From contig NZ_FSRM01000002.1 in assembly GCF_900141745.1 (NCBI RefSeq), positions 868,001 through 932,000 of the forward strand: DNA of 64,000 nt, given 5' to 3'. Within the stretch, counting starts at the first letter, position 1; every line of letters starts with the position of its first letter. Shown piece by piece: positions 49,772 through 64,000 of the stretch. The notes beneath the pieces were generated by a model. The model was given only the letters and a program-made list of their open reading frames with translations, did not search any database and was not told where the DNA came from. Made by a program: the position numbers and the translations under genes. Source of the stretch: Paraburkholderia phenazinium. Lineage in GTDB: Bacteria > Pseudomonadota > Gammaproteobacteria > Burkholderiales > Burkholderiaceae.

Positions 49772-50728
49772 ATGGCAAAAGAAAACATGACAGGAGCGGG
49801 ACGCAAACAGGCCAGGCCGCGCAGCGATGCGCCAGCCCCGCACGAAGAGGCCGCAGCACCCGTCGACCTGACCGACACCGCCGACGACGAGAGCGCCGGC
49901 GGCTCGACCTACCTCGTCCCGGGTCTGGAGCGCGGGTTGCGCATTCTTGCGGAGTTCAGCGCGCGTGAACCGGTGCTGGGTGCGCCGGAGTTATCGAAGC
50001 GCATCGGCATTCCGCGTACCACCACCTTTCGTTTGCTGCAGACGCTGGAAGCGCTTGGGTTTCTCGAACGCGTGAACGGCGACCGTCATTTCCGGCTGAG
50101 CGTGGCGGTGTTGCGGCTGGGCTTCGAATATCTGAGTTCGCTCGAACTGACGGACGTGGGTACGCCGCTGCTCGAGCGCTTGCGTGACGCGACGGGACTC
50201 AGCGCGCATCTTCTGATCCGCGATCAGCGCGACGTGGTATTCGTTGCGAAAGCCCAGGCGCACGATCCGATGTTCAGCTCGGTCAAGGTGCATGTCGGCA
50301 CACGTCTGCCGGCGCATGCGACTGTGCATGGCCAGGTGTTGATGGGCGATCTTAGTTACGACGAACTGCGCCAGCTTTATCCGGAGCCGCAACTCGAGCG
50401 TTTTACCGATCGCACGCCGGCCACTGTGGAAGAACTCAACGAGCGGGTGCGCGAAAGCGCGGCGCAGGGCTATGCGGTGAGCGAAGCTTCGTTCGAGCGA
50501 GGCATTTCGGTGGTGACGGCGCCGGTGCGCGACCAGACTGGCCGCATCGTGGCGGCCTTGACGGTGACGGTGCCGCGCTCGGATATTGGTGACGCCAGCG
50601 AACGCGAACCGTTGATCGCAGCGGTGTGCAACGCGGCTGTTGAGTTGTCGACACGCCTCAATTACCGTCCGCCCGCAGACGATCCGACCGCGGTAGAGGC
50701 ACGCCGCAGGACTATCGCGGCTAGCTAG
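49772..50728 (+). CDS. IclR-family transcription regulator (first paralogue)
   Basis: A regulator of 318 residues. After a disordered, Ala/Asp-rich N-terminus of about 45 residues comes a winged helix (LSKRIGIPRTTTFRLLQTLEALGFLE, read in parts) and the IclR effector domain to residue 300. It closely resembles the regulator at 56545: long stretches such as FEYLSSLELTD and VFVAKAQ are identical. It lies beside the porin and the aromatic operon, which it may control together with or in place of its paralogue. Confidence 0.92.
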   Translation: MAKENMTGAGRKQARPRSDAPAPHEEAAAPVDLTDTADDESAGGSTYLVPGLERGLRILAEFSAREPVLGAPELSKRIGIPRTTTFRLLQTLEALGFLERVNGDRHFRLSVAVLRLGFEYLSSLELTDVGTPLLERLRDATGLSAHLLIRDQRDVVFVAKAQAHDPMFSSVKVHVGTRLPAHATVHGQVLMGDLSYDELRQLYPEPQLERFTDRTPATVEELNERVRESAAQGYAVSEASFERGISVVTAPVRDQTGRIVAALTVTVPRSDIGDASEREPLIAAVCNAAVELSTRLNYRPPADDPTAVEARRRTIAAS

Positions 50729-52330: not shown

Positions 52331-52372
52331 TATAATTGTCCATACACGAACTGATGTTCCTTGTATGGAACA
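52331..52372 (+). promoter_or_regulatory. Promoter and operator-like palindromes before the aromatic operon
   Basis: TATAAT (52331-52336) has no good -35, as in activator-dependent promoters. Just downstream is TGTTCC-TTGTAT-GGAACA (52355-52372), and overlapping it a wider inverted repeat TCCATAC (52339-52345) / GTATGGA (52363-52369). IclR proteins bind short palindromes of this kind. The ferredoxin start is at 52398. Confidence 0.55.
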
Positions 52373-52397: not shown

Positions 52398-52712
52398 ATG
52401 ACTGAAGAATGGCGTTGCGCCGGACATGCCGGCGACCTGTCCGAAGACGCGCCGCTCGAGTACAAGCTCGAAGGCACGGAGATCGGCATCTACAAGGTGG
52501 GCGATGCGCTGTACGCGCTGGAAAACGTCTGTCCCCACGCGTACGCGTTGCTGACGCAGGGATTTGTCGACGGCGATACCGTCGAATGCCCGTTGCACGA
52601 AGCCGTGTTCCATATCCCGACTGGCAAGTGCTTGAAAGAGCCGGGCGGCCGCGACCTGAAGGTGTATGCGGTTCGTCTCGCCGGTGAAGAAATCCAGATC
52701 AAGGTGGAATGA
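52398..52712 (+). CDS. Rieske [2Fe-2S] ferredoxin component
   Basis: A ferredoxin of 104 residues that carries electrons to the ring-hydroxylating oxygenase. The Rieske motif is CxH (Cys45, His47) and CxxH (Cys64, His67) in the contexts VCPHAYALLTQG and ECPLHEAVF. Length is typical of BphF/NdoA-like ferredoxins. A GGAGAAGG site precedes the ATG. It is the first gene of the operon; the reductase for it is probably encoded by the last visible gene (63206). Confidence 0.94.
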   Translation: MTEEWRCAGHAGDLSEDAPLEYKLEGTEIGIYKVGDALYALENVCPHAYALLTQGFVDGDTVECPLHEAVFHIPTGKCLKEPGGRDLKVYAVRLAGEEIQIKVE

Positions 52713-52713
52713 C

Positions 52714-53025
52714 ATGCGAGAGCAAGCCGTGAAATTCAATCCCTCCCTGAAGCCGTGGCTCGCGCCGCAGCCGAACAACGTGGCAGGCAAAGGCGTCATC
52801 GAAAAGCCGGGCGAGGCGCAAAACCTCGTGTGGCAAACCCGCAAGGCCGAACCGACGCAATACGAGAACGACTTCGGCGATGCGCTCGAGAAGGTGTTCG
52901 ATGCGGGTGCGGTGGAGTTGCAGGACGTTGTCGACGGCTTGAACCGCATCGGCTTCCGGACCCCGGAAGGCGCGGCGTGGACCGCCGAACGCCTGACCGC
53001 CGAATTCCGCCTGCTCGCCGAATAG
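52714..53025 (+). CDS. Small protein with a recombinase-like helix-turn-helix
   Basis: A protein of 103 residues beginning one base after the ferredoxin stop. The C-terminal half (about 60-103; DVVDGLNRIGFRTPEGAAWTAERL, read in parts) resembles the small helix-turn-helix of resolvase-type recombinases, and the N-terminal half is extended and Pro-rich. There is no catalytic recombinase domain. I recall similar proteins next to Rieske oxygenase genes. It could be a local regulator or an oxygenase accessory factor; function is unknown. Confidence 0.75.
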   Translation: MREQAVKFNPSLKPWLAPQPNNVAGKGVIEKPGEAQNLVWQTRKAEPTQYENDFGDALEKVFDAGAVELQDVVDGLNRIGFRTPEGAAWTAERLTAEFRLLAE

Positions 53026-53084
53026 GCGCGTACCCAGACAACCTTGCGAAACCGTCGCACCGCCTACGCATCTGGAGTCTTTTC

Positions 53085-54185
53085 ATGACGTCCCCCACAC
53101 CCCATCCCACCACGGACCACGGCACGGCCGATCCGCTTCAGGCTTACCTCGACCTCGGTCTGCGCAATTACTGGTATCCGGTCGCCCCGAGCTGGCAAGT
53201 CGGCAATGCGCCCATCGGCCTGACGCGCCTCGGCGATCAGATCGTCCTGTGGCGCGATCAGGAAGGCCGTGTCCATGCACTCGAAGACCGCTGCCCGCAT
53301 CGCGGTGCGCGTCTATCGTTGGGCTGGAATCTTGGTGGCAGCGTCGCGTGCTGGTACCACGGCATTGAAATCGACGGCGGCGGCACGGTTACCAAAGTCC
53401 CGGCCGTGTCGAACTGCCCGCTCGAAGGCCAGAAGTGCGTGAAGTCGTATCCCGTGCAAGAACATGCGGGGGCTATCTTCCTGTGGTTCGGCGACGACGC
53501 TCACAAGGAACCCGCGCCACTCGTTTTGCCGGAAGAACTGGTGAACGAGGAGTACGCGAGCTTTCTGTGCATGTCGAACTGGAAGTGCAATTACCAGTAC
53601 GCGATTGACAACGTGATGGATCCGATGCACGGCGCCTATCTGCATGCGACCTCGCACTCGATGGCCGAAGGCGACAAGCAGGCCGACATGCGCGTGCGCA
53701 AGACCGATACCGGTTTGATGTTCGAAAAGGTCGGCCAGCGCGACGTCAATTTCGACTGGGTGGAGCTCGGCGAAACCGGTTGCCTGTGGATGCGCCTCGC
53801 GATTCCCTACAGGAAGAAGTTTGGCCCGGGCGGCAACTTTGGGATCATCGGCTTTGCCGTTCCCGTCGATGAGAGCAACTGCCAGGTTTACTTCTGGCGC
53901 ACGCGCAAGGTATCGGGATGGCAGCGCGACGCATGGCGTTTCATGTACCGCAACCGCCTCGAAGGTCTCCATTGGGACGTGCTGGAGCAGGACCGCTATG
54001 TCCTCGAAAGCATGGCGCCGGATGCACGCAAACACGAATTCCTTTATCAGCATGACGTCGGCATGACGCGCGTGCGTCGTATGTTGCGGCAGCGCGCGCA
54101 GCAGGATTTCGATGCACTCGCCGCGCACCGTGCGCAAGCGGCCACTGCCACGACGGGTACAGCAGCAGGGCATAGCCATGCATAA
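53085..54185 (+). CDS. Rieske aromatic ring-hydroxylating oxygenase, alpha subunit
   Basis: An oxygenase of 366 residues. The Rieske centre is Cys70/His72 (CPHRGA) and Cys89/His92 (CWYHG). The mononuclear iron site follows in IDNVMDPMHGAYLH, with bridging Asp175, His182 and His187. No separate beta subunit is encoded, so it is likely a homotrimeric, phthalate/vanillate-oxygenase-like type (hydroxylase or demethylase). Substrate unknown. The ATG at 53085 has GGAGTC upstream. It overlaps the next SDR gene by eight bases. Confidence 0.93.
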   Translation: MTSPTPHPTTDHGTADPLQAYLDLGLRNYWYPVAPSWQVGNAPIGLTRLGDQIVLWRDQEGRVHALEDRCPHRGARLSLGWNLGGSVACWYHGIEIDGGGTVTKVPAVSNCPLEGQKCVKSYPVQEHAGAIFLWFGDDAHKEPAPLVLPEELVNEEYASFLCMSNWKCNYQYAIDNVMDPMHGAYLHATSHSMAEGDKQADMRVRKTDTGLMFEKVGQRDVNFDWVELGETGCLWMRLAIPYRKKFGPGGNFGIIGFAVPVDESNCQVYFWRTRKVSGWQRDAWRFMYRNRLEGLHWDVLEQDRYVLESMAPDARKHEFLYQHDVGMTRVRRMLRQRAQQDFDALAAHRAQAATATTGTAAGHSHA

Positions 54186-54951
54186 CGCCAACGCTGCGCC
54201 CGCGGCACTCACCGGCCGGCGCGTGATCGTCACGGGCGGCGCGCGCGGTCTTGGCGCGGCGTTTGTGCGCTCGCTGGTGCAGGCCGGCGCGCAAATCGTG
54301 TTCGGCGATGTTTTGCACGACGAAGGTCGTGCGCTCGCCGAGACGCTGCAAAGCGAAGGTCACGGGGCGCAATTCCTGCCACTGGACCTCGCCGATCCAT
54401 CGAACATCCAGAGCTTCGTCGTCCAGGCGGTGAAGCAGCTCGGAGGCCTCGATGCGCTCATCAACAACGCGGCAATCACCAACTCCGGCGGCAAGCTGGC
54501 CGGCGAACTGGCGGTCGATACGTGGGATGCGGTGATGAACGTCAACGTGCGCGGCACGTGGCTAATGAGTACCGCGGCGCTGCCGCATCTGCGCGACTCG
54601 GGCCGCGGCAGCATCGTCAATATCGCTTCGGATACGGCGCTGTGGGGCGCGCCGAAACTGCTGGCTTATGTCGCCAGTAAAGGCGCCGTGATCGCGATGA
54701 CGCGTTCGCTGGCGCGTGAATTCGGCGCCGACGGCGTCACGGTCAACGCGATCGCACCGGGGCTGACCGAAGTCGAGGCCACCGCCTACGTGCCGGCCGA
54801 ACGTCACGAGTATTACCTGAAAGGCCGTGCGCTGACCCGCGCCCAGGTTCCCGACGATGTGACGGGGCCGGTCCTGTTCCTGTTGTCCGATGCCGCACGC
54901 TTCGTGACCGGCCAGTTGCTGCCGGTGAACGGCGGCTTTGTGATGAATTGA
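54178..54951 (+). CDS. Short-chain dehydrogenase (probable diol dehydrogenase)
   Basis: A classical SDR of 257 residues with TGGARGLG (19-26), NNAA near 95, catalytic Ser in IASDTALWG and the Tyr/Lys pair in YVASK near 160, all intact. In the operon it could rearomatise a cis-dihydrodiol made by the oxygenase or oxidise an alcohol side chain. The ATG at 54178 overlaps the oxygenase stop by eight bases. Confidence 0.92.
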   Translation: MHNANAAPAALTGRRVIVTGGARGLGAAFVRSLVQAGAQIVFGDVLHDEGRALAETLQSEGHGAQFLPLDLADPSNIQSFVVQAVKQLGGLDALINNAAITNSGGKLAGELAVDTWDAVMNVNVRGTWLMSTAALPHLRDSGRGSIVNIASDTALWGAPKLLAYVASKGAVIAMTRSLAREFGADGVTVNAIAPGLTEVEATAYVPAERHEYYLKGRALTRAQVPDDVTGPVLFLLSDAARFVTGQLLPVNGGFVMN

Positions 54952-54978
54952 TCTTGTCTTGACCGAAAGGAGAAAGAG

Positions 54979-55506
54979 ATGGCGGACACCGATTTCGAAC
55001 GTAAGTCGTGGGATCAACCCGCGGAAGCCAGTTTTGCGCAATGGATGGACACACGCGTTGCACGTCTTGAAACCCGTCGCTACGACTGGGACGCGCTGAA
55101 GTTTCAGGCCGATTACGACCCGAAGTATCGCCGGGCGCAAATGCGCTATGTCGGCACGGGCGGCACGGGTGTCGCGAAGGATGTCAACACGGTGCCTGCA
55201 GGCGGCTTCACGTTCTCGACCATGGTGATCCCGGCCGGCAATATCGGGCCGAGCCATATTCATATGGATGTCGAAGAAATTTTCTTCGTGCTGCGCGGCA
55301 AGATGAAAGTGATCTGCGAACGCGACGGCGAGACCTGGGAATCGGTGCTCGGCGAGCGCGACCTGATTTCGGTGCCACCGGGCGTGTATCGCACGGAAGT
55401 GAATATCGGCGAAGAGGATGCGCTGATGTGCGTGATGCTCGGTTCTCCGAAGCCGATCACGCCGACTTATCCGCCGGATTCGCCGCTTGCCAAGCTGAAG
55501 CGATAG
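54979..55506 (+). CDS. Cupin-domain protein
   Basis: A protein of 175 residues with a single cupin barrel. The first metal motif is GPSHIHMDVEEIFFVLRG (about 92-109), giving two His and a Glu; the second is weaker (near SVPPGVYRTE), where the usual His is not evident. It may be a dioxygenase, isomerase or binding protein of the pathway. A strong AAAGGAG site precedes the ATG. Confidence 0.85.
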   Translation: MADTDFERKSWDQPAEASFAQWMDTRVARLETRRYDWDALKFQADYDPKYRRAQMRYVGTGGTGVAKDVNTVPAGGFTFSTMVIPAGNIGPSHIHMDVEEIFFVLRGKMKVICERDGETWESVLGERDLISVPPGVYRTEVNIGEEDALMCVMLGSPKPITPTYPPDSPLAKLKR

Positions 55507-55643
55507 GCGACAAGCACTTGGGTGCGAAGCGCAGGGTGGTTGCCCGTTCGACGCTTTGCACTAGCCATACCCACGCGACAACCCTGTGCACCGCACCGTC
55601 GCCGCACTGACGTCACCTTACTTTGCACTTGCAGATAGAAACC

Positions 55644-56543
55644 ATGTCCGCTGTCCCGTCTGTTACTGCCGATCTCGCCGCCTCGCTGGAAGCGCGTCTT
55701 GCGCGCTTTCCGCTGCAGCAGGCCGTTACCGCGGCGACGCAGACGGTGGGTTATCGCGAAGCGCGAGAGCTGGCTTCTGTGCGCGACGAGGCGTTGCCGC
55801 TCGTGCTGCTGCACGGCATTGGCTCGGGAGCAGCGTCGTGGGTGCAGCAGTTTGAAGCGCTCGGTGCGACGCGGAAGGTGCTTGCCTGGGATGCGCCGGG
55901 ATACGGCGTATCGACACCGGTCGTCCCAGCTTCGCCCCAAGCGGCGGACTACGCCGACGTTCTGCGCGGCTGGCTCGACGCGCTCGGCATCGCGCGTTGC
56001 GTGCTGGTAGGGCATTCGCTGGGCGCGATCGTCGCTGGCGCATTTGCTGCTGCAAATCCGCAGCGTGTCGCAGGCCTTTTGCTGCTGTCGCCTGCTGGCG
56101 GTTACGGCGCGGCCACAACAGACGTACGCGAAACAAAACGCGACCAGCGTCTTGCGATGCTCGCCGAACTCGGCCCCGTAGGTCTTGCCGAAAAGCGCAG
56201 TACAAACATGGTGTCTGCACACGCCGACGAGACAGCCCGTGCGTGGGTACGCTGGAACATGGCGCGCATCGTGCCGCAAGGCTACGCGCAAGCCACACAT
56301 CTGCTCGCCAACGCCGATCTTGCCGCCGACCTCTCGCGCTTCCACGGACTGGTCAACATTGCTGTAGGCGCCGAAGACACCATCACGCCGCCGTCCGCAT
56401 GCGAACGGCTGGCCCTCGCGGCTCGTACGTCCTTGCAGATCGTGCTGCGCGCCGGTCACGCCGGATATATCGAAGCCGCTGACGCGTACACCGCGATCAT
56501 CGACACGTTCTGCCGCGCGAGCGCGGCACCACGGAGCCACTGA
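55644..56543 (+). CDS. Alpha/beta hydrolase (candidate meta-cleavage product hydrolase)
   Basis: A hydrolase of 299 residues with oxyanion-hole text VLLHGIGSG near 54, nucleophile Ser125 in GHSLGA, acid Asp in GAEDTITPP and His in RAGHAGY near 273. Such enzymes split C-C bonds of meta-cleavage products or hydrolyse esters. The ATG at 55644 is the first good start. It precedes the IclR gene by one base, so it is in the same operon. Confidence 0.88.
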   Translation: MSAVPSVTADLAASLEARLARFPLQQAVTAATQTVGYREARELASVRDEALPLVLLHGIGSGAASWVQQFEALGATRKVLAWDAPGYGVSTPVVPASPQAADYADVLRGWLDALGIARCVLVGHSLGAIVAGAFAAANPQRVAGLLLLSPAGGYGAATTDVRETKRDQRLAMLAELGPVGLAEKRSTNMVSAHADETARAWVRWNMARIVPQGYAQATHLLANADLAADLSRFHGLVNIAVGAEDTITPPSACERLALAARTSLQIVLRAGHAGYIEAADAYTAIIDTFCRASAAPRSH

Positions 56544-56544
56544 A

Positions 56545-57417
56545 ATGACGCCCGACACGATCAACGCCGAGCGCGCAACAGACGACGACAACGCCGAACC
56601 CGGCTACAAAGTGCCCGGTCTCGAACGCGGTCTGAAGATTCTGACTGAGTTCTCGCCACGCGAGCCGGTATTGGGCGCACCGGAATTATCCCGGCGCCTG
56701 AAGATTCCCCGCACGACGGTCTTCCGTCTGCTGCAGACGCTCGAATCGCTCGGCTTTCTCGAGCGAGCCGATAAGGACCGCAACTATCGCCTGGGCGTTG
56801 CGGTGCTGCGCCTCGGCTTCGAATATCTGAGCTCGCTCGAACTGACGGATCTCGGCTTGCCGATCATCGAGGCCTTGCGCAACGACACCGGTCTGACAAG
56901 CCACATCCTGATCCGCGACGGACGCGACGTGGTGTTCGTCGCCAAGGCGCAAAGTCACACGCCGATTTTCAGTTCGGTGAAGGTCAACGTCGGCACACGC
57001 CTGCCCGCACATGCGACGACGCACGGCCAGGTGCTGATGGGCGATCTGACGCTCAACGACTTACGCGCGCTGTACCCCGAGCCGAAGTTGCATCGCTTTA
57101 CCAAACTCACACCTGAAACGGTCGAAGAGTTGTACGAACGAATTCGCGATGACGCGCAGCGCGGTTTCGCGATCAGCGAATCGTCGTTCGAACGCGGCAT
57201 TTCGGTCGTGACGGCGCCGGTGCGTAACGACACGGGCCGCATCGTTGCAGTGATCACCACGACGATTCCGCGGCCGGAGATCGATGCAGCGCTGCTCGAC
57301 AGCGGTCTGATCGACAAGGTGCGCGGCGCGGCTGACGAACTCTCGCAACGCCTGAACTACCGTCCCAAGAACGGGCCGGCCGCGGGCAGCAAGTACATGA
57401 AGGCATTGGGGCTCTAA
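56545..57417 (+). CDS. IclR-family transcription regulator (second paralogue)
   Basis: A regulator of 290 residues with winged helix (LSRRLKIPRTTVFRLLQTLESLGFLE, read in parts) and effector domain. It is highly similar to the protein at 49772 but lacks most of the N-terminal extension. It is embedded in the operon, one base after the hydrolase and overlapping the next SDR by TAATG, implying autoregulated control of the pathway, perhaps through the palindrome at 52355-52372. Confidence 0.93.
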   Translation: MTPDTINAERATDDDNAEPGYKVPGLERGLKILTEFSPREPVLGAPELSRRLKIPRTTVFRLLQTLESLGFLERADKDRNYRLGVAVLRLGFEYLSSLELTDLGLPIIEALRNDTGLTSHILIRDGRDVVFVAKAQSHTPIFSSVKVNVGTRLPAHATTHGQVLMGDLTLNDLRALYPEPKLHRFTKLTPETVEELYERIRDDAQRGFAISESSFERGISVVTAPVRNDTGRIVAVITTTIPRPEIDAALLDSGLIDKVRGAADELSQRLNYRPKNGPAAGSKYMKALGL

Positions 57418-58223
57418 TGATCCAGATCGATTTGACCGGTCAGGTAGCGGTGGTGACGGGCGGCTCGTCCGGCATCGGCCTCGCGACCGCCGAACTGTTT
57501 TTGCGTGCGGGTGCATCGGTCGCCATCTGCGGACGCGACGCCGAACGCCTGGCGCATGCGGAGACGGCGCTGAAGACGCAATTCCCGTCCGCGCAACTGC
57601 TCGCCACACGCTGCGATGTGCTCGACGCAGAGGAAGTCAAAGGCTTCGCGCAAGACGTGCAGCGCCGCTTCGGTCGCACTGACATGCTGGTGAACAACGC
57701 TGGCCAAGGCCGCGTTTCGACTTTCGCCGACACCACCGACGACGCCTGGCGCGAAGAACTCGACCTGAAGTATTTCAGCGTGATCCGCCCGACTCGCGCG
57801 TTTCTGCCAATGCTGCGCGACGCGGCGGGCATGGGCAACGCGTCGATCGTCTGCGTGAATTCGCTGCTCGCGCTGCAGCCGGAGCCGCATATGGTGGCGA
57901 CTTCCTCGGCACGCGCGGGTTTGCTGAGTCTCATCAAGTCACTAGCGGTAGAACTCGCGCCGCAGCGTATTCGCGTGAATTCGATTCTGATCGGCATCGT
58001 CGAATCGGGCCAATGGCGCCGCCGCTTCGAGACGCAAGCCGCGCCGGGCCAGAGTTGGGAAGACTGGACGGCAGAACTCGCACGCAAGAAGAACATTCCG
58101 CTTGGCCGCTTCGGCCGTCCCGAAGAGGCCGCACAGGCACTCTTTTATCTGGCTACTAATCTGTCGTCCTACACGACAGGCAGTCATATCGATGTCTCTG
58201 GAGGCAATGCACGACATGTCTAA
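57417..58223 (+). CDS. SDR-fold protein lacking the catalytic Tyr and Lys
   Basis: A protein of 268 residues with the SDR cofactor motif TGGSSGIG (14-21) and NNAG (93-96). The active-site Ser149 is present, but 13 residues on, where Tyr should be, is Thr162, and four further on Arg166 replaces Lys (ATSSARAG). Typical oxidoreduction is therefore doubtful. The C-terminus keeps the SDR ending ([13 protein letters not shown]). It overlaps the IclR gene at its start and the TPP enzyme gene at its end. Confidence 0.88.
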   Translation: MIQIDLTGQVAVVTGGSSGIGLATAELFLRAGASVAICGRDAERLAHAETALKTQFPSAQLLATRCDVLDAEEVKGFAQDVQRRFGRTDMLVNNAGQGRVSTFADTTDDAWREELDLKYFSVIRPTRAFLPMLRDAAGMGNASIVCVNSLLALQPEPHMVATSSARAGLLSLIKSLAVELAPQRIRVNSILIGIVESGQWRRRFETQAAPGQSWEDWTAELARKKNIPLGRFGRPEEAAQALFYLATNLSSYTTGSHIDVSGGNARHV

Positions 58224-59874
58224 TAAAACCACCGTCGGCGAGCTGATTGCCGCCTTTCTCGAGCAATGCGGCGTTCGCACGACGTTCGGCGTGATTTCGA
58301 TCCACAACATGCCGATCCTCGACGCGATCAACAACCGCGGCAAGATCCGTTATGTCGGTGCACGCGGCGAAGCCGGTGCGGTCAACATGGCCGATGGTCT
58401 GGCACGTGTGTCCGGTGGCCTTGGCGTCGCGTTCACCAGCACGGGTACTGCAGCCGGCAACGCAGCAGGCGCGATGGTCGAAGCGCTGACCGCTGGCACG
58501 TCGCTGCTGCATATCACTGGCCAGATCGAAACCGAATACCTCGACAAGGACCTCGCGTATATCCACGAAGCGCCGGACCAGTTGTCGATGTTGTCGTCGA
58601 TCTCGAAGGCCGCCTACCGCGTCCGCACTGCCGAGACTGCACTCCCGACGATCCGCGAAGCGGTGCGGGTCGCGCAGACCGCGCCGAGCGGCCCGGTGAG
58701 TGTCGAGATTCCGATTGACATTCAGGCGGCAGAAATCGAATGGCCCGCTGACCTCAGCGCGCCGCACGTGACGACGCTCACGCACGACAGCAAGCGCGTC
58801 GTGCAACTCGCCGATGCGCTGGCCAAGGCCGCGCGTCCGCTGCTGTGGCTTGGCGGCGGCACGCGTCACGCGCGGACGGCGGTTGAGCGCCTGGTGGCGC
58901 TGGGCTTTGGCGTCGTGACCAGCGTGCAGGGCCGCGGCATCCTGCCGGAAGATCATCCGGCGACGCTCGGTGCGTTCAACGTGCACGCGTCGGTGGAGAG
59001 CTTCTACAAGACTTGCGATGCGGTCCTCGTGGTCGGTTCGCGTCTGCGTGGCAATGAAACGTTGAAGTACAAGCTTGCGCTGCCGCAACCGCTGTACCGC
59101 ATCGATGCGGACGCACTCGCCGACAACCGCGGCTATCGCAACGATCTGTTTGTGCATGGCGACTCCGCTGCGGTTCTGGAAGAACTCGCGACGCTGCTCG
59201 AAGGCCGTCTCAAGGTGGATCCGAAGTTCGCTGCCGATCTGGCCGCTGCCCGGGAGATCGCCGTAGCGGATGTAGGCAAGGGTCTCGGACCGTACAAGCG
59301 CCTCGTCGATGCACTGCAACGTTCGGTGGGCACGGACTATAACTGGGTGCGCGATGTGACGATCTCGAACAGCACGTGGGGTAACCGCCTGCTGCAGATT
59401 TTCACGCCGCGTGCGGGGGTGCACGCCTTGGGCGGTGGTATCGGTCAAGGGATGCAGATGGCAATCGGTGCGGCGCTGGCGGGAACAGCGGCGAAGACGG
59501 TGTGCCTCGTCGGCGACGGTGGCCTGATGGTGAACGTCGGTGAACTGGCGACGGCCGTGCAGGAAAACGCCAACGTCATGATCGTACTGATGAACGACCA
59601 ATGCTATGGCGTGATCCGCAACATCCAGGACGCGCAGTATGGCGGCCGCCGCTGCTTCGTCGATCTGCATCAACCGGACTTCGCGCAGTTTTGCGAGAGC
59701 CTGAAGCTCACCCATTACCGCATCAAGTCGCTCGACGACGCGGACGAGATTATCCGCGAAGGTCTGGCGAAGACGGGCCCGGTGCTGGTTGAAGTGGACA
59801 TGCTGTCGGTCGGCTCGTTTGCCACCGCGTTTGCTGGGCCGCCGGTCAAGAAGCAGGAGCCAGAACATGCATGA
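58216..59874 (+). CDS. Thiamine-diphosphate-dependent enzyme (2-oxo acid decarboxylase/synthase family)
   Basis: An enzyme of 552 residues with the three TPP-family domains. The catalytic Glu52 is in [13 protein letters not shown], and the cofactor motif begins GDG at 433-435 and ends at Asn460 (LMNDQ). Relatives include benzoylformate decarboxylase and acetolactate synthase; here a 2-oxo acid decarboxylase feeding the aldehyde dehydrogenase is most plausible. The ATG at 58216 has GGAGG upstream at longish spacing; ATGs at 58192 and 58207 are alternatives. It overlaps the next gene by eight bases. Confidence 0.9.
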
Positions 59875-60697
59875 TCTTCGCCACGCGGGACATCATGCGC
59901 CCGTCGACGTTGCGATGATCGGCTTCGGGGCGATCGGCCAGGCGGTGTATCGCTCCGTTGTAGCGGATCCGCAAGTGCGCGTGTCGCATGTGATCGTGCC
60001 CGAGCGGCATGCGGCGTCGGTGCGAGAGGTGGTGGGCGCGTCGGTAGATGTGGTGTCGTCGGTGGCTGCGCTGAGCAGCCGCCCGCAGTTCGCGCTGGAA
60101 TGCGCGGGCCACAGTGCGTTGGTCGACCACGTTGTTCCGTTGTTGAAAGCGGGCACCGATTGCGCGGTGGCTTCTATCGGAGCTCTCTCGGACGTGCTGC
60201 TGCTCGACGCTCTCTCGGCTGCTGCGGATGAAGGCGATGCCACGCTGACGCTGTTGTCCGGCGCCATTGGCGGCGTAGACGCTTTGGCCGCGGCGAAACT
60301 GGGTGGCCTCGACGAAGTGCTGTACACGGGTCGCAAGCCGCCGCAGGGCTGGCTCGGCACACCCGCCGAAGAGATATGCGATCTGCAGAGCCTGACGGAA
60401 GAGCGGATCATTTTCGAAGGTAGCGCCCGTGAAGCGGCGCGGCTTTATCCGAGGAATGCCAACGTGGCGGCGACGATTGCGCTGGCAGGTCTCGGCCTCG
60501 ATCAGACCATTGTGCGTCTGATCGCAGACCCCGCTGTGACGCGCAACGTGCACCGCATCCTGGCGCGCGGCGCATTCGGCGAGATGTCGCTCGAAATGTG
60601 CGGCAAGCCGTTGCCGGACAACCCCAAGACGTCCGCGCTGACCGCGTTCAGCGCGATCCGTGCCCTGCGCAATCGCGCGGCGCGTTGCGTGATTTGA
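59867..60697 (+). CDS. Aspartate-dehydrogenase-like NAD(P)-dependent enzyme
   Basis: A protein of 276 residues with the nucleotide motif [10 protein letters not shown] (19-28) and the family middle text [22 protein letters not shown] (read in parts), then [19 protein letters not shown]-aspartate dehydrogenases interconvert aspartate and oxaloacetate plus ammonia, usually for NAD synthesis. No nadA or nadC is nearby; between a TPP enzyme and an aldehyde dehydrogenase it may deaminate the pathway's amino substrate instead (inferred). It overlaps the TPP gene (ATGCATGA). Confidence 0.88.
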
Positions 60698-60715
60698 TGA
60701 GAAGTAACTGAGCGG

Positions 60716-62230
60716 ATGACCGACATGACTCACTTCGATACCAGCCTCGTGCCCACCGGCGATATTTTCATCGGCGGCGAATGGCGGCAAGGGCGTGGCA
60801 ACCCGTACAAAAGCCTGTATCCGGCAGATCAGTCGGTCAACATGGAAATCTCGACGGCCAGCGCCGACGATGCGCGCGATGCGGTCGAAGCCGCGGACAT
60901 TGCATGGCGCAAAGCGGATTGGGCCGGTCTGAAGCCGCATCAGCGTGCCCTGGTTCTGTACCGTATCGCCGATCTGATCATGGCGCGTCACGAAGCACTG
61001 GCGCATCTGCAGCGGCGCGATAACGGCAAGCCGATCGGCGAAACACGCGTACTGGTGGCGAGCGCTGCCAACACGTTCCGCTATTTCGCCGCGTGCCTCG
61101 AAACGCTTGAGGAAGAGCTCACGCCGTCGCGTGGCGACTACATGACCATGAGCGTGTACGAGCCGATTGGCGTGATCGCGGCTATCACGCCGTGGAACTC
61201 GCCGATCGCATCGGATGCGCAAAAGCTTGCTCCTGCGCTTGCGGGTGGCAACGCGGTGGTGTTGAAGCCCGCTGAAGTGACGCCGCTGGTCTCGCTCGCG
61301 TTGGCGCGCATCTGCGAAGAAGCGGGCGTACCGAAGGGCGTATTGAGCGTGTTGCCCGGTAAAGGTTCGGTAATCGGCGATGTGCTGGTGCGTCATCCGC
61401 TCGTGAAGAAAGTGTCGTTCACTGGCGGGACCGAAGTGGGTCGTGGCATCGCGCGCATCGCCGCGGACAAGCTGATGCCGGTGTCGCTGGAACTGGGTGG
61501 CAAGTCGCCAACCATCGTCTTCGAAGACGCGGATATCGATCACGCGGTGAACGGCGTGCTGTACGGCATTTTCAGTTCGTCGGGCGAGGCATGCATCGCG
61601 GGCTCGCGTTTGTTCGTGCATCGCCCGATCTACGACACGTTCATGAAGCGCCTGGCGGAAGGCGCACGCAGGTTGCGCGTGGGCGACCCTTCGAGCCCGG
61701 AAACACAGATGGGCCCGTTGATTACGCCAGCGCATCGCGAATCGGTGGAGCGTTATGTCGCTTTGGGCCTGGAAGAAGGTGGACGCCTGTTGTGCGGTGG
61801 CGAGCGTCCCGTCGGCGACGGACGCGAACAAGGCAACTTCTATCAGCCCACGATTCTCGAAGGCCTGTCGAACAGCGCCCGTATCTGCCAGGAAGAAATT
61901 TTCGGACCGGTGCTGGTCGCCATGCCATTCGATGACGAAGCCTCGCTAATCAAGCAGGCCAACGATAGCGTGTTTGGCCTCGCTGCCGGCATCTGGACGC
62001 GCGACTACAAACGCGCCTGGCGCGTGGCCCGCGCGCTCGAAGCGGGCACCGTGTGGATCAACACCTACAAGCTGTTCTCGATCTCGACGCCGTTCTCCGG
62101 CTGGAAAGAGAGCGGGATGGGTCGCGAGAAAGGGCGTCTCGGCATTCGCGAGTACATGCAGCAAAAGAGCCTGTACTGGGGCTTGAACGACGCACCTTTG
62201 GCCTGGGCCAATGCGCCCCAGACGAATTGA
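60716..62230 (+). CDS. Aldehyde dehydrogenase
   Basis: A NAD(P)-dependent aldehyde dehydrogenase of 504 residues. Asn161 (TPWNSP), Glu259 (LELGGKSP) and the nucleophile Cys293 (SGEACIAGSR) are in place. The common Gln/Asn before Cys is replaced by Glu-Ala, which occurs in some subfamilies. It should oxidise the aldehyde produced by the TPP enzyme or after ring cleavage. It starts 18 bases after the previous gene. Confidence 0.94.
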   Translation: MTDMTHFDTSLVPTGDIFIGGEWRQGRGNPYKSLYPADQSVNMEISTASADDARDAVEAADIAWRKADWAGLKPHQRALVLYRIADLIMARHEALAHLQRRDNGKPIGETRVLVASAANTFRYFAACLETLEEELTPSRGDYMTMSVYEPIGVIAAITPWNSPIASDAQKLAPALAGGNAVVLKPAEVTPLVSLALARICEEAGVPKGVLSVLPGKGSVIGDVLVRHPLVKKVSFTGGTEVGRGIARIAADKLMPVSLELGGKSPTIVFEDADIDHAVNGVLYGIFSSSGEACIAGSRLFVHRPIYDTFMKRLAEGARRLRVGDPSSPETQMGPLITPAHRESVERYVALGLEEGGRLLCGGERPVGDGREQGNFYQPTILEGLSNSARICQEEIFGPVLVAMPFDDEASLIKQANDSVFGLAAGIWTRDYKRAWRVARALEAGTVWINTYKLFSISTPFSGWKESGMGREKGRLGIREYMQQKSLYWGLNDAPLAWANAPQTN

Positions 62231-62247
62231 GGAACAAGAGGCACGAC

Positions 62248-63213
62248 ATGACGATTCTCGGCATTGAACAGATTACCTACGGTGTGACGGACCTCGAAAC
62301 CTGCCGGCGCTTTTTTGCCGACTGGGGTTTGAAAGAGACTGCGCACGACGAAACCCGCGCCCGCTTCGAATCGCTGAACGGCTGCACGATTCTGGCCGTG
62401 GATTCGAACGATCCGTCGCTGCCGCCCGCTTTCGAAGAAGGTTCGACGCTGCGTGAGGTGACGTGGGGTGTAGCGACGCGCGCCGAACTCGACGCGTTGC
62501 GCGGCCGCTTTGCAGGTCAGCCTGGACACTTCGAAAACGACGACGCGGTGGGTTGCATCGACCCGAACGGCATGGCGATTCGTGTGGAAGTCACCCGCAA
62601 GCGCGACGTCGAAACGCATGGCTCACCTTCAAACGTGTGGGGCCAGACGTTACGCGTGAATCAACCGTCGCCGATCTATGAGCGAGCTGAACCGGTGGAA
62701 GTGGGGCATGTGGTGTTCTTCACCAACAACCTTGCCGAAACGGAGAAGTTCTATCAGGAACTGCTCGGCTTCGAGATGTCAGACCGTTACCCGGGACGTG
62801 GCGCGTTTCTGCGCTGCGCGCCGCATGGCGGACATCATGACCTGTTCCTGCTGGCGTTGCCGAACGGCAAACGTGGCCTGAATCACGTGGCCTTCACCGT
62901 GCGCGATATTCACGAAGTGTTCGGCGGCGGCATGCATATCAGCCGCTGCGGCTGGGACACGCAACTTGGGCCGGGGCGCCATCCGGTGTCGTCTGCTTAC
63001 TTCTGGTATTTCCAGAATCCGGCTGGCGCGCTCATCGAGTACTACGCGGATGAGGACCAACTGACGCCCGAGTGGCAACCGCGCGATTTCGAGCCGGGGC
63101 CGACCGTGTTCGCCGAATGGGCGATCGATGGCGGCATCGACGGCAACACGCGTCGTCAGAAGAATGCGAAAGCGCCGGAGGGCAAGTTCATGACGAAGCG
63201 CAAACATGACTGA
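62248..63213 (+). CDS. Extradiol ring-cleavage dioxygenase (VOC superfamily, two domains)
   Basis: A type I extradiol dioxygenase of 321 residues with tandem VOC domains. Iron ligands are in the second domain: His154 (VEVGHVVFF), His213 (LNHVAFTV) and Glu264 (ALIEYYAD). It should open a catecholic ring next to the diol (meta-cleavage). Length and ligand spacing match catechol 2,3-dioxygenase/BphC-like enzymes. It overlaps the reductase gene by eight bases. Confidence 0.9.
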   Translation: MTILGIEQITYGVTDLETCRRFFADWGLKETAHDETRARFESLNGCTILAVDSNDPSLPPAFEEGSTLREVTWGVATRAELDALRGRFAGQPGHFENDDAVGCIDPNGMAIRVEVTRKRDVETHGSPSNVWGQTLRVNQPSPIYERAEPVEVGHVVFFTNNLAETEKFYQELLGFEMSDRYPGRGAFLRCAPHGGHHDLFLLALPNGKRGLNHVAFTVRDIHEVFGGGMHISRCGWDTQLGPGRHPVSSAYFWYFQNPAGALIEYYADEDQLTPEWQPRDFEPGPTVFAEWAIDGGIDGNTRRQKNAKAPEGKFMTKRKHD

Positions 63214-64000
63214 CGCCGCTGCATCAAGCGCACACGCGAGCCTGGAGGCACCACGCACGATCGTCGTGATCGGCGGTGGCCAGGCGGCCGGATGGGTCGT
63301 GAAGACCTTGCGCAAGGAGGGTTTCGACGGTCGCCTCGTGATGATCGCTGATGAGATCCACTTGCCGTATGAGCGTCCACCGCTGTCGAAGGCGGTGCTG
63401 GCGGGGGAAGCGGATATCGACACCGTGCGCCTCGTCAAGCCGGACGACTTCGACGCCCTGAACATCGAAGCGTGGCAGCCGGATACGGCTACGTCGATTG
63501 ATCGTGAGCAGCGCATCGTGCGTACGCTGTCGGGCCGCGAGGTGCAATACGATCGCTTGGTGATTGCCACGGGTGGGGCCGCGCGACGCTTGCCCGATGC
63601 GCTGGTGAAGACTTTCAACATCGCTTACCTGCGCACGCTCGATGAAGCGGTCGCCCTCGGCGAACGGTTGCGCGCGAGCCAGCACGTGCTGGTGATTGGC
63701 GGCGGCTGGATTGGGCTGGAAGTGGCGGCAACTGCACGCAAGCTTGGTGTTGCGGCAACTGTCGTCGAAGGTGCGCCGCGCCTGTGCGCCCGCTCGGTGC
63801 CGCCGGCTATTTCCGATTTCCTGGCTGAACTGCATCGGGCCAATGGCGTGGACGTGCGCCTCGATTCAGGCCTTGTATCGCTCGACGATCACCCCGACAA
63901 CCCCCACGGCGTGCGTGCCACACTGGCCGACGGCACAACGCTTGATGCCGATTTCGCCGTCGCGGGTATCGGTCTCACGCCGCATACGGCGCTCGCACAA
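63206..64000 (+). CDS. FAD-dependent ferredoxin reductase, cut by the window end
   Basis: The frame opens at the ATG at 63206, inside the dioxygenase stop region, and stays open to the last base, giving 265 residues of an expected ~410. FAD motif VIGGGQAAG (21-29), YERPPLSKAVL near 60, ATGG near 115 and a second dinucleotide motif VIGGGWIGLE near 163 are those of BphA4/rubredoxin-reductase-type enzymes. It would pass electrons from NAD(P)H to the Rieske ferredoxin at 52398, completing the oxygenase. Confidence 0.92.
   Translation, partial: MTDAAASSAHASLEAPRTIVVIGGGQAAGWVVKTLRKEGFDGRLVMIADEIHLPYERPPLSKAVLAGEADIDTVRLVKPDDFDALNIEAWQPDTATSIDREQRIVRTLSGREVQYDRLVIATGGAARRLPDALVKTFNIAYLRTLDEAVALGERLRASQHVLVIGGGWIGLEVAATARKLGVAATVVEGAPRLCARSVPPAISDFLAELHRANGVDVRLDSGLVSLDDHPDNPHGVRATLADGTTLDADFAVAGIGLTPHTALAQ

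Follow-up and report, generated by a model that had tools for sequence, protein, structure and literature searches.

A conserved Burkholderiales operon as a candidate for kynurenic acid degradation in Paraburkholderia

The closest described counterpart of the locus reported here is the classical degradation of kynurenic acid (4-hydroxyquinoline-2-carboxylate) by Pseudomonas, which begins with 7,8-dihydroxylation, dehydrogenation and extradiol cleavage, and whose enzymes (EC 1.14.99.2, 1.3.1.18, and 1.13.11.10) are known as activities in extracts. The locus lies in a 64,000-nucleotide stretch of Paraburkholderia phenazinium DNA (the window; bases 868001–932000 on the second contig of a two-contig genome of 8.3 Mb). 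It consists of an operon of 13 genes on the + strand starting at position 52398, or about 14 with a major facilitator superfamily (MFS) transporter beyond the window end, and holds one enzyme type for each of these first steps. Judging from the set of enzymes, this operon probably degrades kynurenic acid (we estimate a probability of about 0.6). The compound is a product of tryptophan that is reported in PMC11585892 to be immunomodulatory and possibly neuroprotective. Enzymatic conversion of kynurenate to 7,8-dihydroxykynurenate is announced in the title of a 1963 paper by Taniuchi and Hayaishi, cited for Pseudomonas fluorescens in PMC5610271. On bacterial kynurenate breakdown, that article and PMC11354673 refer back to papers from 1961 and 1963, and the latter states that pseudomonads metabolize kynurenate to glutamate, alanine, and organic acids. 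No report of genes for kynurenate breakdown was found among the listed titles and abstract openings of the open-access literature, a coverage from which subscription journals are mostly absent.

Other described systems share parts of this inventory. The hca/mhp and bph-type meta-cleavage operons likewise combine a Rieske system, a diol dehydrogenase, a type I extradiol dioxygenase and an α/β-hydrolase, but the present operon lacks their hydratase, aldolase and acylating acetaldehyde dehydrogenase and carries instead a thiamine pyrophosphate (TPP) enzyme, an aldehyde dehydrogenase, a cupin and an aspartate dehydrogenase. Among NCBIfam models, those of the anthranilate dioxygenase AndA of Burkholderia come nearest to the ferredoxin (83 bits, cut-off 150) and second nearest to the reductase (343 bits, cut-off 650), to which HcaD is nearest (369.5 of 450 bits); the AndA equivalog cut-offs are not reached, and the oxygenase of the operon is of the single-subunit VanA_C type. 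Oxygenases of this type (those acting on dicamba and carbazole, and 2-oxoquinoline 8-monooxygenase) have the same domain make-up and iron ligands, and dicamba O-demethylase is the best PDB match (91 bits), but the operon's oxygenase is distant from them in sequence and has a small HTH_62 protein nearby, as in 15/15 sampled genomes. Stand-alone L-aspartate dehydrogenases of the NadX type belong to the same family as the operon's copy, which sits inside a catabolic operon. Finally, 6-hydroxynicotinate 3-monooxygenase (NicC) is the nearest solved relative of a flavoprotein that adds to or replaces the Rieske module in variant clusters; this flavoprotein is absent from the window's operon.

Gene content and conservation of the operon

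Alignment of the TPP enzyme was used to fetch 80 related loci (L numbers below), the best 80 of 574 confirmed ones, with more in existence. As these loci are mostly from Burkholderiales and were picked by similarity, they describe conservation among relatives and not the spread across bacteria. Gene presence was scored by set bit thresholds, and the counts of aligned residues given below include the window's own protein. All nine catalytic genes are found in 74 of the 80 loci. Taken singly, the hydrolase and the second short-chain dehydrogenase/reductase (SDR) occur in all 80, the first SDR and the cupin in 79 each, the aspartate dehydrogenase, the aldehyde dehydrogenase and the extradiol enzyme in 78 each, the oxygenase in 77 and the HTH_62 protein in 76; several misses correspond to loci truncated at contig ends (e.g. 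L041, L070, L088, and L089). The operon is a conserved unit, beyond what chance would produce.

An initial annotation, made from the letters of this DNA, had described one aromatic catabolic operon at 52398–64000 and had named gene order across Burkholderiales as a way of checking it. The grouping of the nine genes in relatives, with colinearity of the set in Caballeronia NK8 (pNK83 and pNK84, plasmid-collection records), bears out that description. All the genes it named are present at the same coordinates and on one strand, as seen from Pfam and NCBIfam matches and open reading frame (ORF) positions, and none of the pathways it had set aside (benzoate, phthalate, biphenyl, phenylacetate, indoleacetate, and mandelate) is indicated. 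Indeed, no substrate-defined NCBIfam model reaches its cut-off with the oxygenase, its ferredoxin or reductase, the extradiol enzyme or the hydrolase, and the hydratase and aldolase that usually follow extradiol cleavage in the meta pathway are not among the operon genes, to which this examination was confined. The boundary is correct for the genes it encloses but too narrow, for the conserved unit also takes in the porin, a second IclR gene, the MFS transporter and the HTH_62 gene at 52714–53025, which had been overlooked. The features are given below; start codons of the operon genes are our choice, and all Pfam matches exceed the curated cut-offs.

52398–52712, + strand: Rieske ferredoxin (Pfam Rieske, 67.6 bits)
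52714–53025, + strand: small HTH_62 protein of 103 amino acids (Pfam HTH_62, PF20552, 91.5 bits)
53085–54185, + strand: single-subunit Rieske non-haem iron oxygenase, proposed kynurenate 7,8-dioxygenase (Pfam Rieske, VanA_C)
54178–54951, + strand: classical SDR, proposed cis-dihydrodiol dehydrogenase (Pfam adh_short)
54979–55506, + strand: cupin, proposed dihydroxypyridine ring-opening dioxygenase (Pfam Cupin_2)
55644–56543, + strand: α/β-hydrolase, proposed N-acyl-aminofumarate amide hydrolase (Pfam Abhydrolase_6)
56545–57417, + strand: IclR-family regulator 2, within the operon (Pfam IclR_C)
57417–58223, + strand: SDR without YxxxK, proposed C=C reductase of the ring-cleavage product (NCBIfam PRK07062, 473.6 bits, cut-off 266)
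58216–59874, + strand: TPP enzyme, proposed 2-oxo-acid decarboxylase (NCBIfam PRK07064, 957.4 bits, cut-off 495)
59867–60697, + strand: aspartate dehydrogenase, proposed to convert iminosuccinate to L-aspartate (NCBIfam aspartate dehydrogenase equivalog, 536.6 bits, cut-off 479)
60716–62230, + strand: aldehyde dehydrogenase, proposed to oxidize the formylethyl side chain (Pfam Aldedh, 570 bits)
62248–63213, + strand: type I extradiol dioxygenase of the VOC fold, proposed 7,8-dihydroxykynurenate 8,8a-dioxygenase (Pfam Glyoxalase)
63206–64000, running to 64462 in the genome, + strand: ferredoxin-NAD reductase (Pfam Pyr_redox_2, Reductase_C)
64487–65890 in the genome, just past the window end: MFS transporter (Pfam MFS_1; nearest NCBIfam model aromatic acid/H+ symport, below cut-off)
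52355–52372, no strand: palindrome TGTTCC-N6-GGAACA, probable regulator operator, 25 bp 5' of the ferredoxin start codon
50887–52080, − strand: divergent outer-membrane porin (Pfam Porin_4; porin match in 67/80 loci)
49772–50728, + strand: IclR-family regulator 1 (Pfam IclR_C, HTH_IclR; nearest model PcaR/PcaU/PobR, below cut-off)

From the Rieske ferredoxin through the MFS transporter the genes are spaced by 1, 59, −8, 27, 137, 1, −1, −8, −8, 18, 17, −8, and 24 bp, and a gap of 317 bp separates the operon from the divergent porin. The two IclR regulators are paralogues with 70.6% identity; most related Burkholderiaceae loci that were drawn likewise have an IclR gene next to the porin.

A proposed route from kynurenate to aspartate

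The operon brings together genes whose types suit ring dihydroxylation, dehydrogenation of the diol, extradiol cleavage, decarboxylation of a 2-oxo acid and oxidation of an aldehyde. Kynurenic acid is the single aromatic known to us that uses all of these enzyme types together with a likely C=C reductase, a cupin, a hydrolase and an aspartate dehydrogenase. The initial annotation had stated that the combination matches no pathway that could be named; this no longer holds, as the enzymes together agree with the classical route by which bacteria degrade this quinoline-2-carboxylate. We favour the kynurenate route because every catalytic gene receives one role and none is left spare.

In the proposed scheme the ferredoxin, oxygenase and reductase would add O2 at C7–C8 of kynurenate, the canonical SDR would produce 7,8-dihydroxykynurenate, and the extradiol enzyme would cut C8–C8a to give a 4,6-dihydroxypicolinate bearing a 3-carboxy-3-oxopropenyl side chain. 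The double bond of this side chain would be reduced by the SDR without YxxxK, the 2-oxo acid decarboxylated by the TPP enzyme to leave a formylethyl group, and this group turned into carboxyethyl by the aldehyde dehydrogenase. These six steps are those of the classical kynurenate scheme, whose intermediates come from the same 1960s work and from pathway databases. The last three are our own proposal: the cupin would add O2 and break the pyridine C4–C5 bond, yielding the amide of 2-oxoglutarate with aminofumarate; the α/β-hydrolase would cut that amide into 2-oxoglutarate and iminosuccinate (aminofumarate); and the aspartate dehydrogenase would reduce iminosuccinate to L-aspartate, or else hydrolysis would give oxaloacetate and ammonia. 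The porin and the MFS protein would take up kynurenic acid, and the IclR proteins would control the promoter via the palindrome. We infer each of these reactions, the transport and the choice of regulator from the families of the genes. The formulae balance stepwise by hand arithmetic (C10H7NO3, C10H7NO5, C10H7NO7, C10H9NO7, C9H9NO5, C9H9NO6, C9H9NO8, then C5H6O5 + C4H5NO4).

The proposal for the last steps accounts for the aspartate dehydrogenase because, in the segment N1–C2(COOH)–C3–C4(=O) of kynurenate, the ring nitrogen sits on a COOH-bearing carbon beside a CH and a C=O; in the pyridone left after the sixth step, the N1–C2(COOH)–C3–C4 atoms are a disguised aminofumarate. A comparable dioxygenation is that of the cupin enzyme Dke1, which breaks β-diketones. 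The constituent parts are of known kinds; the combination of enzymes, and a last ring opening carried out by a cupin, were not known to us from before, and the latter would, if true, be a reaction new to us.

The residues are in keeping with these assignments. The oxygenase has the CxH...CxxH Rieske motif and an Asp/2-His/Asp mononuclear iron site, and the ligands (C70, H72, C89, H92, and D179, H182, H187, D303) are kept in 77 or 78 of the 78 aligned proteins, one row having gaps; both its ferredoxin and its reductase partner are encoded in the operon. The catalytic YxxxK of the first SDR (54178–54951) appears as Y[VTA]ASK in 80/80 aligned sequences, and the 2-His-1-Glu iron ligands of the extradiol enzyme (H154, H213, and E264) in 79/79; cleavage of the catechol beside its hydroxyls is proposed for the latter. 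In the second SDR (57417–58223), filed here as an SDR-fold protein, YxxxK is not found in any of the 81 aligned sequences, TSSAR or TSAAR standing in its place. Because of this replacement an ordinary alcohol dehydrogenase is unlikely, and reduction of a C=C bond, a reaction needing no Tyr acid, is a reasonable and fitting assignment. Both PRK07062, to which this protein belongs, and PRK07064, the family of the TPP enzyme, have general names only. The α/β-hydrolase keeps S125, D245, and H272 in 81/81 aligned sequences, and the score of the aspartate dehydrogenase lies above the cut-off of its equivalog model. In the cupin, H93, H95, and E99 are invariant in 12/12, and a profile search of solved proteins leads to oxalate decarboxylase-like cupins and quercetinase QueD, that is, to relatives of diverse catalysis.

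The small HTH_62 protein is closely tied to the oxygenase. In an even sample of 398 genomes of the window's phylum, the oxygenase is found at E <= 1e-60 in 15, the source genome included; the 15 strongest HTH_62 matches (40–107 bits) come from exactly these 15 genomes, each less than 3 kb from the oxygenase. The other 14 genomes with an HTH_62 match have weak ones (<=31.4 bits), 7 over the family cut-off and 13 of the 14 in frames of at least 225 amino acids. Among the 80 loci, L102 has the oxygenase and an HTH_62 protein below threshold. Pfam describes HTH_62 as a recombinase-like helix-turn-helix domain; here the protein is a partner of this oxygenase family and may serve it as small subunit, as assembly factor or as regulator. 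The scheme would offer a first guess at function for HTH_62 as well as for PRK07062 and PRK07064. Moreover, naming the genes would convert orphan kynurenate activities into sequences and would let metagenomes be read for kynurenate loss.

Regulation and variant entry modules

The core GTTCC-N6-GGAAC lies upstream of the ferredoxin, with varying centre, in 54 of the 57 loci having a ferredoxin ORF, the loci without it being L044, L090, and L104. Its longer form has one exact place genome-wide (reversed control 0), and the count within the window is 1 against 0.02 expected. The palindrome is a probable operator, either IclR protein being a candidate binder. A sigma-70 scan of the promoter region found no promoter; TATAAT at 52331–52336 is visible by eye. 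Three palindromes occur in Caballeronia M1242 (L019, at 11919, 18614, and 18832), one separating the flavoprotein gene from the transporter-oxygenase genes, the others preceding the porin and the lower-pathway genes, respectively, which suggests that upper, porin and lower genes form one regulon there.

Ten of the 80 loci, including those of Pandoraea and Herbaspirillum, have the flavoprotein monooxygenase at the cluster, as do Caballeronia M1242, Nitratireductor and some other genomes. Its nearest solved proteins are 6-hydroxynicotinate 3-monooxygenase (291 bits), tropone 2-monooxygenase (256) and a vanillate hydroxylase (202), the best salicylate hydroxylase scoring 175. By hydroxylating beside an existing hydroxyl, such an enzyme could channel xanthurenate (8-hydroxykynurenate) into the route through the same catechol. 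In Vibrio nigripulchritudo a 29.6-kb stretch holds the flavoprotein, lower-pathway genes and a TRAP transporter; the oxygenase, the ferredoxin, the HTH_62 gene and the first SDR were not found in that stretch. The Vibrio flavoprotein is split over two frames in its record (L023, 19199–20331). Two loci whose best matches are to alpha-proteobacterial versions have a sulfatase (PF00884) between the flavoprotein/TRAP genes and the oxygenase genes (L122, 6434–7996; L124, 6583–8244), which suggests a hydroxy-aromatic substrate arriving as sulfate ester.

On pNK84 of Caballeronia NK8 (L013, 14326–23557) the full cluster is accompanied by a second ferredoxin, HTH_62 gene, oxygenase, TPP enzyme and extradiol gene, followed by three molybdenum hydroxylase genes. 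The second copies of the ferredoxin, oxygenase, TPP enzyme and extradiol gene are 96.6–100% identical to the first, as expected of a recent duplication, which we take the repeated genes to be. In Cupriavidus respiraculi, the 11 kb that follow the transporter gene of the cluster hold a relative of the pNK84 molybdenum hydroxylase (65, 62, and 78% identity) and the flavoprotein (69%). Molybdenum enzymes are known to 4-hydroxylate quinaldate, which gives kynurenate. The flavoprotein variants (for xanthurenate?) and the molybdenum hydroxylase variants (for quinaldate?, in two genomes) point to an N-heteroaromatic acid. RidA, of the imine/enamine deaminase family that hydrolyses imines and enamines, is present in 12 of the 80 loci, a further hint at a nitrogen heterocycle.

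Joining these observations, we put forward a tentative wider reading, to which we give somewhat less than even odds: the cluster would be the gene basis, new to us, of complete aerobic kynurenate catabolism. It would consist of a core pathway from extradiol cleavage to aspartate, in which the cupin opens the pyridine dioxygenolytically to N-(2-oxoglutaryl)aminofumarate, and of three exchangeable entries, with the Rieske system admitting kynurenate, the flavoprotein xanthurenate and the molybdenum hydroxylase quinaldate. The HTH_62 protein would be required by the oxygenase, and the Klebsiella, Acinetobacter and Pseudomonas strains that carry the cluster would act as sinks for a host signalling metabolite.

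Alternative substrates and further occurrences

Several observations weigh against kynurenate as the substrate, an assignment drawn from gene content. No kynurenine-pathway gene was recognized beside the cluster, among the labelled flanking ORFs and a minority of the unlabelled ones. Among the 299 genomes of the family of genome G196, tryptophan dioxygenase occurs in 27 of the 32 oxygenase-bearing ones against 171 of the other 267, a weak association (one-sided Fisher p = 0.014, ignoring descent). In the 19 of those 27 genomes for which both places are listed, tryptophan dioxygenase and the oxygenase lie on different contigs or more than 1 Mb apart. Delftia acidovorans, a classical user of the kynurenate route, is not among the matches listed, which are partly named. 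The aspartate dehydrogenase was not found in two of the 80 loci (L090 and L104), and the Novosphingobium stretch has neither the first SDR nor the ferredoxin. In the cupin, Arg138 replaces the fourth canonical ligand (His of motif 2), a place that we presume from motif spacing, and Arg is found in 41/41 proteins of this type, so that the operon cupin does not have the canonical 3-His-1-Glu site; three two-domain alpha-proteobacterial cupins have His there. In a set of 22 loci, most of them more distant, 20 lack the palindrome, among them those of Klebsiella, Acinetobacter, Novosphingobium, Paracoccus, Nitratireductor, Pseudosulfitobacter, Vibrio, Streptomyces, Pandoraea, Herbaspirillum, Cupriavidus and pNK84. 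As to the variant entries, the NCBIfam model with which the flavoprotein scores best is that of 3-hydroxybenzoate 6-monooxygenase (254 bits, short of the cut-off of 459). The molybdenum hydroxylase is rare (1 of the 80 loci at threshold, with limited flanks); the genomes of L100 and L102 have no match to it at 1e-100, and that of L090 has a 40% match. It serves as context and not as proof, because its large subunit scores higher against 4-hydroxybenzoyl-CoA reductase (438 bits) than against quinoline 2-oxidoreductase (268 bits).

One variant stays within, and is compatible with, kynurenate degradation: the cupin might break C5–C6, or act as a hydrolase or isomerase, and leave the nitrogen at the level of alanine. 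Such an outcome would agree with the diverse catalysis of the solved relatives of this protein and with the alanine and glutamate said in PMC11354673 to be formed from kynurenate by pseudomonads. We consider it rather unlikely, as an aspartate-level product requires C4–C5 cleavage and the aspartate dehydrogenase is present in 78/80 loci.

The same logic could apply to another N-heteroaromatic acid (quinaldate, some substituted kynurenate, an alkaloid or a further carboxylate of a fused pyridine or pyridone), kynurenate being incidental. The exchangeable Rieske, flavoprotein and molybdenum hydroxylase modules do suggest several substrates, and a second oxygenase subfamily (51–56% identity) and the sulfatase adjoining the flavoprotein in two loci would fit with this. 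The aspartate dehydrogenase and the decarboxylase-dehydrogenase pair, however, fit the kynurenate skeleton without added step, and the broad conservation suggests a common natural compound; we hold a different acid of this kind to be improbable.

Even less probable, in our estimation, is meta-cleavage of a non-nitrogenous aromatic acid, in which the α/β-hydrolase would perform C–C hydrolysis, a 2-oxo acid would be decarboxylated and oxidized, and the aspartate dehydrogenase would just balance nitrogen or NAD. The resemblance of the ferredoxin and reductase to cinnamate/phenylpropionate and anthranilate systems, a weak match of the hydrolase to the BphD model (52.5 of 462 bits) and two oxygenase records (P. 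aeruginosa and Pigmentiphaga) named 3-phenylpropionate dioxygenase by their source would be explained in this manner. Yet the ferredoxin, reductase and BphD models all remain below cut-off, a hydratase or aldolase is wanting in the operon, and the cupin, the SDR without YxxxK and the aspartate dehydrogenase, present in 79, 80, and 78 of the 80 loci, would be left without clear role. Benzoate, phthalate, biphenyl, phenylpropionate and anthranilate systems (matching models below cut-off), ordinary meta-cleavage (no hydratase or aldolase in the operon) and O-demethylation by a VanA_C-type oxygenase (the diol dehydrogenase and extradiol enzyme would lose their role) were rejected.

Whichever acid is used, with kynurenate as the preferred one, the gene set is found in varied surroundings. 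The nearest named relatives of the source genome are Paraburkholderia, and the closest locus, from a metagenome-assembled genome, is 98% identical over the TPP enzyme. Other gene orders are seen in Klebsiella pneumoniae and Acinetobacter baumannii records, in Paracoccus, Nitratireductor and Pseudosulfitobacter, whose sets have a two-domain cupin, and in Streptomyces chartreusis, where the set was identified by ORF search in this analysis. The aspartate dehydrogenase is a poor marker of the cluster: 5 of 20 loci fetched with it carry the cluster (L165, L166, L170, L172, and L173), the other 15 lying outside such clusters. The oxygenase of genome G196 is 94% identical to a Comamonas protein; within its family, the oxygenase match contains one internal stop in 7 genomes and is in two pieces with stops in G1114, which may reflect decay, assembly error or match ends.

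The electron supply of the oxygenase may also vary. The variant oxygenase (51–56% identical) is accompanied in L096 (15037–19308) by RidA, a VanB-type reductase and a 111-amino-acid protein without Pfam match, neither Rieske ferredoxin nor the usual reductase being found in that locus, and similar arrangements occur in Pandoraea, Herbaspirillum and Comamonas-like loci. In alpha-proteobacterial clusters (L020, 22314–24627; L021; L017) the reductase gene is followed by one with a flavodoxin domain, and the stretch showed no gene for a Rieske ferredoxin; the Rieske oxygenase may there receive its electrons from a flavodoxin. A relative of the variant oxygenase is also among the listed matches for Pseudomonas aeruginosa, and one record of this species (P0201), with the source name 3-phenylpropionate dioxygenase, carries oxygenase and RidA in one reading frame of 432 amino acids.

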